From: a bacterium
GTDB taxonomy: Bacteria > CAIWAD01
Reading direction: 5' to 3'
Assembly: GCA_030429345.1 (NCBI GenBank)
Contig: JAUIFJ010000049.1
Location: forward strand, 1-18,551
Length of the DNA: 18,551 nucleotides
The notes under the pieces were generated by a model, which did not search any database, had not been told where the DNA came from, and was given only the letters and a program-made list of their open reading frames with translations. Numbering within the stretch: position 1 is the first letter of the stretch; every line of letters starts with the position of its first letter. A program made the position numbers and the translations under genes. This document shows, piece after piece, positions 14,621 to 17,930 of the stretch.

Positions 14621-14653
14621 AACCCGCCTTCCGGCCCTGGAGGGCGGGTTTTT
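14621..14653 (+). terminator. Intrinsic terminator of the ribosomal superoperon
   Basis: An AACCCGCC arm (14621-14628) pairs with GGCGGGTT (14643-14650), and the stem continues inward as TTCC/GGAG with one wobble, giving about 12 bp around a 6-base loop. It runs straight into TTTTT at 14649-14653. The position just after rplQ and the strength of the stem make this a confident end point for the whole operon. Confidence 0.92.
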
Positions 14654-14661
14654 GTGTGTAT

Positions 14662-14840
14662 CCACGTCTGCGCTGCGCGCAGTCGTGGAACGGGCACTTT
14701 CGCTGCGCGAAAGTGCCGGGGGTGGCAATCGTTTTTCGGTATGCGAACCGTTTCCGCATGTTTCACATGCGGCTATTGTTGGTCCGCCGCTGCGCGGCGT
14801 ATTGATTGGAGTCCTGGGCTCTCGTGCGGGCGGGGCGGTA
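14662..14840 (+). repeat. Composite hairpin element, copy 1
   Basis: A chain of four palindromes in a non-coding stretch. A: CCACG-T-CTGCGC/GCGCAG-T-CGTGG with TGC loop (14662-14688). B: perfect 11-bp GGCACTTTCGC/GCGAAAGTGCC with TGC loop (14693-14717). C: CCGCATG-TTTCA-CATGCGG (14754-14772). D: CGCCGC-TGC-GCGGCG (14785-14799). It ends with the box CTCTCGTGCGGGCGGGG (14819-14835). A, B and D share the apex CGC-TGC-GCG. A weaker CGGT/ACCG stem lies at 14737-14750. The same order recurs at 17521-17690 with different stem sequences. I do not recognise the family; it resembles REP/BIME-like extragenic palindromes in style. Confidence 0.85.
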
Positions 14841-14849
14841 GTGGCTGGC

Positions 14850-14915
14850 CCGTAGCTGGACCGTAGCCGGCCCGAAGCTAGCCCGAAGCTGGCCCGAAGC
14901 TGGACCGTAGCTGGC
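14850..14915 (+). repeat. Six-copy 11-bp tandem repeat
   Basis: Six contiguous units of consensus CCG(T/A)AGCTGG(A/C) run from 14850 to 14915, with two internal substitutions (CCGTAGCCGGC and CCGAAGCTAGC). A degenerate half unit (GTAGTGGCTGGC) precedes the array. Eleven bases is close to one helical turn, so each unit presents the same DNA face. There is no spacer, so it is not a CRISPR array. It starts 15 bases after the GC-rich box of the hairpin element. Confidence 0.9.
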
Positions 14916-14942
14916 CATCTCCGGGGTCGCCCGCTGCCTGTC

Positions 14943-15150: not shown

Positions 15151-17511
15151 ATGCGTCCCCTGCTCCTTATCCTGGTTCTCGTTTCCCTGGCTGGGGGGGA
15201 GATCCTTCATGTGCCCGGGGAGTATTCGAGCATTCAGGAAGCCCTGGATTCTTCTGCTCCTCTGGATACGGTTCTTGTAGCACAAGGAACGTATCTGGAA
15301 CTGTTGACAACTCCCGAATGGTCCGTCACCCTGGCCTCACATTACATCTTGAGTGGGGATACAACGGATATACAGCAGACGATTTTGGATGGAAACCATC
15401 AAGGCACTGTTCTCACGGTGCACACGAATTGGCCCTGGGTTTTCAGTCTCTGCGGCTTTACCATTCAACACGGCATGGGTGAGTATGAGAGTATGCATGA
15501 CTTCTCCTGTGGCGCACTTGAACTGGAGAACGACGTTGCGTTGAATTTCAAGGATCTTGTTTTTCGAAATAATACAGGTGTCGGCACAGGAGCCATCTAT
15601 GCTGACCACATAGGTGAAGTGCAGACGGGAGACTTTACTTTCTCAAACATTCATCTTATCGACAATGACTTGGTTGATCCTGTTGTTGGTGCAAAAGTAC
15701 TCTATTTCTTTACAGAAGGAACTGTGACGCTTTCAGGTCTTCGTATTAGTGATACGCACTACCTGGCAGGACCAACCATTTTCACAGGCGGCCGCTTAAT
15801 TGCCAGCGATATCGCCCGAGTAGAGCCGGAAGGCTCAGAGTGGAGAGGGCTGGTATTGAGTGGGGAGAATTACTTGAATGTAAGAGATGTAACTGTTGCA
15901 CACTGTTTTAAGAATTCTGATAGCAATTTCTTGACATTAACTGCGGACACTGTCATCTGCCGCAATGTTAGCATCTATGATACACATAAGGCCGGAGGGA
16001 ATACGAATTCGATCATGGCAGATGAATACTGCGATATCGACAGTGTGTTTGTGCACCACAATACGGCCCAATCTTTTGAGGGGTGCATTGATATTAAAGG
16101 GCCTGGGCTTATTCGGAATGTGGAAGTCACGGACAATGTGCTAGGTGATTCACTCTCTTATACCGGTGAGATTCGACGCATGATGTTTTTGGAAGGGCGA
16201 CACATTGAAAACCTGAAGTTCAACCGTAACCGCATCTATGCTGCAGCTCCGGATACGGGACAAACCGCACCAAATTTTATCATTGGTCAGACGGCAGATT
16301 ATTTTTCGCAGTGGGTCAACTGCGAGTTCCTTGACAACTACATGTATGACGGCGACGACCACTCTTCGTTCACTCCTCCTTGGCCGAGCAATGGGCGTGT
16401 GTTGTATTTAAAGTTGAAACGACATGCGGATTTGGAGCTTCACCACTGCCGTTTCGAGAACAACCGTCTTGATGGGCATGTGGCGGAAGTACCCGGGATG
16501 GGTTTTCTACATCGCGCCGTTGGGTCTACCTTGTTCATTGACCCTACGGGTGGCTACCACGACGGGGACATTCTTCTGGACGATGTGCAAGTCATCGACA
16601 ATGACGATGGCGGCGTGTTGATTGATGCGCTTGACACGAACAAGATTGAAATCAATCAGTTGATTGTTCGCAATACGCCAAGGTTGGGGTTGGATGTGCG
16701 ATTGCCGGACACACTGATTATCCGCAATAGTCACTTTGAAAACATTGACGAGCAGGATATGTACTTAGGGTATCCCTACGACACAAGTTTTCAGGATGTA
16801 CTACGTATGGGAGGTGAATACAAAGAAGTAAGCAACATTACGGTGATGAACTGCGATCAAACCGTATTGCTTCGTAGTTCCGCTACATTTCACAACAGCA
16901 TTTTCCATGGGAACCAGTTCGATTTTCTTCAAGTTCCGGACTGGACGGATCCCACCTTTTCGTATTCCATCACCGAGCCCGGCATGTCCGGATCCAACAA
17001 CCTGCAACTGGACCCCCTCTTCGACAGCGAACTAGGCCCTCCCTACTTATCCCCCGCCTCACCCGCCATCGACGCCGGCAACCCCGATCCCATCTACAAC
17101 GACATCGAAGACCCCGAAGCCCCAGGCTTCGCCCTATGGCCCAGCCAGGGCGACCTGCGCAACGACATGGGCTATACCGGCGGTCCGGGTGCCCGGGAGC
17201 TGGATCCGCAGGTTTCTGTCATACCGAAGGAACCGCCGGCCCTGCCGGCAAGCATCGCCTTGTATCCGGCCTGGCCGAACCCCTTCAATCCGGCAACGAC
17301 GGTCGCCTTCGACCTGCCCAACAGTGCGCCGGTTACGCTGACCGTGTACAATTTGCGCGGGCAGAAAGTACGGACTCTGCTCCATGACCTGCTGACGGCG
17401 GGTCGGCATGAGGTTGTGTTCCGGGCAGAAGGGTTGGCCAGCGGCGTGTACTTCCTTAGGCTGGCGGCGCTGGGTGAGGTGCGGACGGGGAAGGTGTTGT
17501 TGCTGAAATAA
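15151..17511 (+). CDS. Secreted right-handed beta-helix protein with C-terminal NPFNP/FlgD-like sorting domain
   Basis: 786 residues. A signal peptide is clear (basic MRP, hydrophobic core to about residue 13, likely cleavage after SLA at 12-14). From about residue 20 the VPGEYSSIQEALDS opening and many N-rich short strands (HLIDNDL, FENNRLDG, VQVIDNDDGG) indicate a parallel beta-helix to about 630. SPAIDAGNP (637-645) and LRNDMGYTGGPG close it. The last 80 residues are a FlgD-like Ig sorting module: NPFNP at 710-714, VYNLRGQKV, ASGVYFLRL, KVLLLK, as in type IX secretion cargo. No catalytic residues were recognised, so function is unknown. The start at 15151 was chosen for the signal peptide and GAGG at 15142-15145. 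The passenger is AT-richer than both its own ends. Confidence 0.9.
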   Translation: MRPLLLILVLVSLAGGEILHVPGEYSSIQEALDSSAPLDTVLVAQGTYLELLTTPEWSVTLASHYILSGDTTDIQQTILDGNHQGTVLTVHTNWPWVFSLCGFTIQHGMGEYESMHDFSCGALELENDVALNFKDLVFRNNTGVGTGAIYADHIGEVQTGDFTFSNIHLIDNDLVDPVVGAKVLYFFTEGTVTLSGLRISDTHYLAGPTIFTGGRLIASDIARVEPEGSEWRGLVLSGENYLNVRDVTVAHCFKNSDSNFLTLTADTVICRNVSIYDTHKAGGNTNSIMADEYCDIDSVFVHHNTAQSFEGCIDIKGPGLIRNVEVTDNVLGDSLSYTGEIRRMMFLEGRHIENLKFNRNRIYAAAPDTGQTAPNFIIGQTADYFSQWVNCEFLDNYMYDGDDHSSFTPPWPSNGRVLYLKLKRHADLELHHCRFENNRLDGHVAEVPGMGFLHRAVGSTLFIDPTGGYHDGDILLDDVQVIDNDDGGVLIDALDTNKIEINQLIVRNTPRLGLDVRLPDTLIIRNSHFENIDEQDMYLGYPYDTSFQDVLRMGGEYKEVSNITVMNCDQTVLLRSSATFHNSIFHGNQFDFLQVPDWTDPTFSYSITEPGMSGSNNLQLDPLFDSELGPPYLSPASPAIDAGNPDPIYNDIEDPEAPGFALWPSQGDLRNDMGYTGGPGARELDPQVSVIPKEPPALPASIALYPAWPNPFNPATTVAFDLPNSAPVTLTVYNLRGQKVRTLLHDLLTAGRHEVVFRAEGLASGVYFLRLAALGEVRTGKVLLLK

Positions 17512-17520
17512 CGCGAATCC

Positions 17521-17690
17521 CCGCGGCTTCGCCGCTGCCGGCCCCTCTCCTTTCGGCGCTTCGCGGCGAAATGGGGGCAATTGGTTGGGGATCCCTTGAC
17601 CGCATGTTTCACATGAGGCTACGATTCATCGGCCGCTTCGCGGCCGATTGTGGTTTTTGGCCCGGCGCTCTCGTGCGGGCGGGGTTGTCC
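17521..17690 (+). repeat. Composite hairpin element, copy 2
   Basis: It begins 10 bases after the stop of the beta-helix gene and repeats the order of copy 1. A': GCGGC-TTC-GCCGC (17523-17535). B': TTTCG-G-CGC/GCG-G-CGAAA with TTC loop (17551-17571), enclosed by GCCCC/GGGGC (17541-17545, 17574-17578). C': CCGCATG-TTTCA-CATGAGG (17600-17618). D': perfect 9-bp ATCGGCCGC/GCGGCCGAT with TTC loop (17628-17648). The box CTCTCGTGCGGGCGGGG (17668-17684) is identical to copy 1. The C-to-box distance is 68 here and 65 in copy 1. The apex is CGC-TTC-GCG in B' and D', against CGC-TGC-GCG in copy 1. Confidence 0.85.
17628..17658 (+). terminator. Possible terminator formed by hairpin D' of copy 2
   Basis: The perfect 9-bp GC-rich stem at 17628-17648 is followed by TTGTGGTTTTT (17648-17658). 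No other terminator lies between the beta-helix gene and this point, so this hairpin could end its transcript. The T-run is interrupted by GTGG, so the call is weak. The matching hairpin in copy 1 is followed only by TATTGATTGG. Confidence 0.4.
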
Positions 17691-17930
17691 TGGTGGATCT
17701 GCGGGTGTGTCTGGTGGGGTGGACGGATTTGTGGATGGGAATGTGGATGGCGGTGGATTGGGGAGAAGTCTTACACGCTCCTACTCACGGTGCACGGCTT
17801 TATTGCCACAAAAATCAGACCGGCGAAATGGACACCTACATGGACAAGAAATCCTGACCCACCCCCTCTGTGTCCTCTGTCTTCCCCGTGCCTCCGTGCG
17901 AGTTCTTGTTCGTTGAGGGAATCCAGCCAG
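17691..17930. other. Non-coding, low-complexity stretch with GTGGAT repeats and a CTCTGTGTCCTCTGT block
   Basis: From 17692 to 17762 the motif GTGGA(T/C) recurs at irregular steps (five clear occurrences), in the place where copy 1 is followed by its 11-bp array. At 17866-17898 comes a CTCTGTGTCCTCTGT block followed by CCGTGCCTCCGTGCGAG. Blocks like this recur in intergenic DNA of many environmental bacteria and yield spurious Cys/Leu/Ser-rich peptides. An open frame spans 17571-18062 but crosses the hairpins and repeats and has no ribosome binding site, so it is not called a gene. Confidence 0.55.

Follow-up and report, generated by a model that had tools for sequence, protein, structure and literature searches.

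The best described systems resembling the repeats considered here are the REP/BIME (REPIN) elements and RAYT/TnpA_REP enzymes of E. coli, Pseudomonas and Stenotrophomonas (PMC2817692; PMC3116915; PMC8266576). In these systems dispersed intergenic palindromes carry a G/ATAG-type foot and are often arranged in opposite pairs, and the repeat family flanks its single-copy Y1 gene. It has been shown that TnpA enzymes of classes 2.2 and 2.5 cut REP DNA as a folded single strand and that the GTAG is crucial (Corneloup et al., 2021; PMC8266576). Hairpins with a GTAG foot are also described in the text of a survey of the PVC phyla (Rhodopirellula, Opitutus), which further reports CGTC repeats without a known transposase (Di Nocera et al., 2013; PMC3733652). 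The Y1 enzymes have been classified by Quentin et al. (2018; PMC6006769). In that survey, subclass 1.2 is characterised by the motifs DH[VI]H, WQ and Y..Q..HH, a length of about 150 aa (~148), low copy number and divergent copies within a genome; the survey lists it as 'REP: no', generally without terminal structures, and places it mostly in Cyanobacteria and Bacteroidetes. No REPs were described for subclass 1.2 in the literature found, and no biochemistry for the subclass was found there.

The window analysed here, 18,551 bp long, is a complete contig from a draft genome of 4.24 Mb. It holds two copies of a hairpin-rich element, the first behind rplQ and the second behind a gene (15151-17508) for a large beta-helix type protein with a C-terminal T9SS type A sorting domain (TIGR04183). 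Their features are as follows.

14662-14688, plus strand: hairpin A of copy 1, with a D-like apex (CGCTGCGCG) and no alignment to A of copy 2
14693-14717, plus strand: hairpin B of copy 1, an 11-bp stem with the apex CGC-TGC-GCG
14754-14772, plus strand: hairpin C of copy 1, an 8-bp stem with a TTC loop, which on the minus strand follows the REP-like foot ATAG
14773-14784, plus strand: linker of copy 1, CTATTGTTGGTC, in which CTAT adjoins C (ATAG on the minus strand) and a GGTC tag lies 5' of D
14785-14799, plus strand: hairpin D of copy 1, CGCCGC TGC GCGGCG
14818-14834, plus strand: 17-nt box of copy 1, GCTCTCGTGCGGGCGGG
17523-17535, plus strand: hairpin A of copy 2, GCGGC TTC GCCGC
17551-17571, plus strand: hairpin B of copy 2, 8 bp, as 5 + 3 bp around a G-G mismatch
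17600-17618, plus strand: hairpin C of copy 2, a stem with one mismatch
17619-17627, plus strand: linker of copy 2, CTACGATTC, in which CTAC adjoins C (GTAG on the minus strand)
17628-17648, plus strand: hairpin D of copy 2, ATCGGCCGC TTC GCGGCCGAT
17667-17683, plus strand: 17-nt box of copy 2, identical to that of copy 1

The initial annotation had placed hairpins at these positions in both stretches, with a B stem of 11 bp in copy 1 and of 8 bp with a G-G mismatch in copy 2, and all of this was confirmed. Folded as single-stranded DNA both copies beat 200 of 200 shuffles, with z scores of -6.0 for copy 1 and -3.0 for copy 2. The further claim that an ordered A-B-C-D series is present twice held only for its second half. 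C, linker, D and box of the two copies align with a local score of 72 (shuffle mean 17, 0/1000 as high), whereas the alignment of A and B is no better than that of shuffled sequences (536/1000 as high), and the unit common to both copies is therefore C-D rather than A-B-C-D. The A-B pair of copy 1 recurs without C-D in a tandem array elsewhere in the genome (C13:13300-13539) and a few further copies, such as that at C13:148913, have a B-like hairpin 5' of C, B being at best a variable companion of the C-D module. The 17-nt box is identical in the two window copies, as had been noted, but it was found in few copies, none of them adjoining a transposase gene, and was rejected as a part of the element. 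Copy 2 lies within an 837-bp segmental duplication (window 17010-17846) that spans the 3' end of the beta-helix gene together with the element, is 88% identical to a region of C13 (~141.5-142.3 kb) and has a partial match in C75, so that the copies are not all independent. Directly 3' of copy 1, at 14844-14916, is an 11-bp tandem repeat (GCTGGCCCGAA-like).

The C-D module is widely dispersed in the source genome. The core of C, with up to two mismatches, occurs in at least 16 places and a reversed control pattern in none. A covariance model (R1) recovered at least 46 copies of the window family at E < 0.001 and, combined with the cross-phylum model R2 described below, at least 124 C-D modules on 28 contigs. 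Covariation was assessed in 17 modules from this genome gathered by their C sequence. In this alignment 96.9% of the cells are paired, 23 cells are double-changed against a shuffle mean of 6.2, two are G-U, and the covariation score is 0.288 compared with 0.106 in shuffles (0/500 as high). The compensatory D stems GGCCGTTGCACGGCC, GGCCCTTGCAGGGCC and CGCCGCTGCGCGGCG illustrate partners changing together. The proposal that the diverged but still pairing stems reflect selection on structure, which had been made from two copies, is thus upheld both by further copies and by their covariation. When copies were mapped relative to genes, all 44 that could be placed lay between predicted genes. Neighbouring modules are arranged plus then minus, that is in opposite orientation, in 31 of 45 pairs, the window copies themselves being unpaired. 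On the minus strand of C the foot reads ATAG and GTAG in the window; other copies in the source genome also have TCAG or TTAG, and the foot is not a strict GTAG. An Rfam scan of the region gave no relevant match even at a permissive E-value, and the exact D core was not found in viral contigs. An element of the copy-2 type at C75:230855-230940 (L058, 1856-1941) lacks C and runs from A/B straight into D, an arrangement that resembles the product of recombination between two similar hairpins.

Further evidence on the nature of the module came from the Y1 transposase genes of the same genome. Ten Y1_Tnp genes were found, five of which (on C8, C44, C52, C9 and C46) encode subclass-1.2-like proteins of 150-160 aa. 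All five have the motifs DH[VM]H, WQ and YI..QE.HH, and the class 2 TnpA_REP motif Y---NP is absent from each of them. NCBIfam models label the enzymes IS200/IS605 transposase; the C8 enzyme has no match to the NCBIfam REP_Tyr_transpos model and one enzyme reaches 25 bits against its cut-off of 80. The C8 gene (C8:76109-76570) has the window repeat family on both flanks, with CTGCAGGTGAAACCTGCAG-linker-GGTC-D upstream and two palindromic C-D...D'-C' pairs downstream. Each of the other four, whose proteins are 33-40% identical to the C8 protein, is flanked by C-D modules of its own sequence, and no C-D modules lie alongside the other five Y1 genes of the genome. The most likely cognate enzyme of the window family is the subclass-1.2 HUH/Y1 TnpA encoded at C8:76109-76570, and from the flanking positions we infer that modules and enzymes are specific to one another. 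Of the other modules in the genome, only part could be assigned by similarity to one of the five enzymes. Upstream of C9:163006 (L060) a short tandem repeat array (GGTTGGTCACCGAATC) runs straight into a C-D module. A second dispersed repeat, ACACGCTCCTACTCACGGTGCACGGCTTTATTGCCACAAAAATCAG, lies in the window at 17774-17817 and has at least ~30 matches in the source genome; since copies of it flank both sides of a class 2-like Y1 gene (C75:130401-130676), it may belong to that enzyme.

The association extends to other phyla. The five proteins were searched against 84,980 named genomes and the best 80 relatives were taken. They come from Planctomycetota, Verrucomicrobiota (one contig being labelled Akkermansia), Chlamydiota, Acidobacteriota, Bacteroidota, Sumerlaeota, Hydrogenedentota, Calditrichota, Myxococcota and others, and the motifs DH[VIML]H, WQ and Y..Q..HH occur together in 78 of 84 proteins. 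A strict pattern, requiring a C hairpin followed by CT, a spacer of 6-14 nt and a D hairpin, detected outward-reading modules in 30 of the 80 loci, on both sides in 14, and none in 80 dinucleotide shuffles or 72 distal stretches. In the cross-phylum consensus C is CCNNGGGYTGRCRCCCNNGG, followed by CTAY, about 8 nt and then D, which has a 5-bp stem and a 3-nt loop. On the opposite strand the order becomes D', linker, [G/A]TAG and C', which places a canonical REP foot on hairpin C; the foot is GTAG or ATAG in most cross-phylum modules. A third, D-type hairpin is often present 20-25 nt beyond C on the side opposite to D, and this may be what hairpin B of the initial annotation represents.

The covariance model R2 was built from 25 modules with 20-nt C hairpins from 17 of the 80 loci, with the source genome excluded, and the way in which these training modules were selected partly explains why its pairing is perfect. 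Both window copies are matched by R2, with rough E-values of 5.7e-9 (copy 1) and 4.4e-5 (copy 2). Applied to the source genome, R2 found modules beside 5/5 subclass-1.2-like genes and none beside the other Y1 genes. In the 80 related loci it found 137 modules at E ~3e-4 or better, beside 56 of the genes and on both sides of 48, counts that are partly by construction because the training modules came from 17 of these loci; among the untrained loci ~39/63 still carry a module. No more than 320 bp separates 122 of these 137 modules from the gene, a span that holds 15% of the bases, and among them 54 of 66 upstream modules are on the minus strand and 46 of 56 downstream modules on the plus strand. 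Across 145 whole genomes modules and enzyme tend to be present together (Fisher p 7.8e-5; 3.6e-4 with the source genome excluded). One unrelated genome (G132, L213) has 32 two-hairpin modules and no detectable Y1 transposase gene, and likewise no such gene accompanies the five modules of G101 or the two of G041; the modules of G132 may be an orphan population or may depend on another mobiliser. In a tree of 84 transposases module presence is strongly clustered, requiring 7 changes against 20.5 with shuffled labels. The proteins for which no modules were detected fall mainly into a Bacteroidota-dominated clade (13/13) and a chlamydial clade (4/4). In several members of the Bacteroidota-dominated clade single D-type hairpins recur, and D may therefore be the older substrate and C a later addition.

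Taken together these data make it very probable that the window elements are REPs with two hairpins per unit, spread by transposases of subclass 1.2 (REPtrons). The data show that C-D modules accompany the transposase genes, and we infer that TnpA mobilises them. An unlikely alternative would take the repeats not for REPs but for ordinary ends of IS200/IS605 elements, or for MITEs derived from decayed insertion sequences. The closest curated models and PDB profiles for the enzymes are indeed those of IS200/IS605 TnpA (ISDra2, IS608), and the present system shares with that family its HUH/Y1 chemistry and the presence of hairpins at both gene ends. The near-identical, multi-copy transposase genes expected of an insertion sequence were, however, not seen; there are instead five single and divergent TnpA genes, each with its own module family. 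The modules far outnumber the gene, are mostly inverted at its two ends, and for the most part occur without it, alone or in opposite pairs. Moreover, class-1.1-like loci among the relatives have no clear module (best E 0.027).

It is very unlikely that the hairpins act instead as RNA, terminating transcription of the upstream genes or stabilising their 3' ends, and that their structure is kept for that purpose. Such a role would agree with the intergenic position of the copies and with the orientation of the gene pairs around the 44 placed copies (22 co-directional, 21 convergent and one divergent), although these orientations are approximate because the simple gene caller used mis-strands some ribosomal genes, the intergenic call being sturdier. 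D in both copies and C in copy 1 also carry a terminator-like flag. Against this, rplQ has its own terminator-like hairpin (14627-14643) ahead of copy 1, the orientation of modules follows tnpA on both sides of the gene rather than transcription, and the 23 double changes contrast with only two G-U cells. R1 found no copies in three genomes of the same family or in one of the same class, which also counts against this reading. Even if single copies did act in this way, the link with the transposase would be left unexplained. The initial annotation had allowed for structure in RNA or as DNA cruciforms; the DNA level is retained, with recognition by a single-strand transposase fitting the data better than an RNA element does. 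That the window copies are alike only through local or segmental duplication, with stem differences arising by chance, is barely credible, since outside C, D and the box the flanks of copies 1 and 2 are unrelated, dozens of other copies change in sequence yet keep their pairing, and both the covariation and the R2 matches to the two window copies contradict it, even though copy 2 does sit in the duplicated segment common to C13 and, in part, C75.

The unit of this probable two-hairpin REP comprises hairpin C, with a [G/A]TAG foot 5' of it on the minus strand, and hairpin D, with a GTC-type tag 5' of it, which lies ~12 nt away, beyond the foot of C. By analogy, TnpA would bind the folded single strand during replication by way of the TAG foot and the hairpins, would cut near the foot, and would copy the module, or move it, into the DNA between genes, spreading it at the replication fork. 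On this view the window copies are dispersed, non-autonomous insertions, copy 2 having afterwards been partly duplicated along with its neighbourhood.

The suggestion of REP/BIME elements as the nearest known idea has proved apt, in that the repeat is intergenic, covaries and flanks its own Y1 transposase gene, and it shares with the REP/RAYT systems (PMC2817692; PMC3116915; PMC8266576) dispersed palindromes, a foot of the G/ATAG type in the window copies and in most cross-phylum modules, units often in opposite pairs and a repeat family on the flanks of a single-copy gene. It differs from REP/BIME elements in that the unit has two distinct hairpins, a fixed linker of ~12 nt and a GTC-type tag 5' of D, and in that its cognate enzyme belongs to class 1, which is IS200-like, rather than to class 2. 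Hairpin C fits the GTAG superfamily and the GTC tag of D recalls the CGTC repeats as these are described in the text of Di Nocera et al. (2013; PMC3733652), a text in which neither the coupling of C with D nor the link to subclass 1.2 appears. In motifs, size, low copy number and divergence within a genome the enzymes agree with subclass 1.2 as set out by Quentin et al. (2018; PMC6006769). Unlike the picture given there, two-hairpin modules are present in most members outside one Bacteroidota-dominated clade, and module-bearing members are found in Planctomycetota, Verrucomicrobiota, Acidobacteriota, Chlamydiota and other phyla.

A broader proposition, for which we consider the chances to be evenly balanced, is that the subclass-1.2 IS200-like TnpA enzymes constitute a separate, ancient and phylum-crossing REP system. 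C with its TAG foot and the tagged D would be read together, as a bipartite recognition unit undescribed for any REP or IS200 element, and the system would represent an independent origin, within class 1, of REP-type genome parasites or domesticated REPtrons.

With these repeats a transposase subclass without a known substrate gains a concrete, sequence-defined candidate, and the C-D layout is tied to many phyla in which REPs have been little studied. Both the route from an IS200-type enzyme to a REP mobiliser and the question of which of the two hairpins is read become testable. The finding also calls for caution, as a conserved hairpin behind a gene in these phyla may be a REP insertion rather than a riboregulator.
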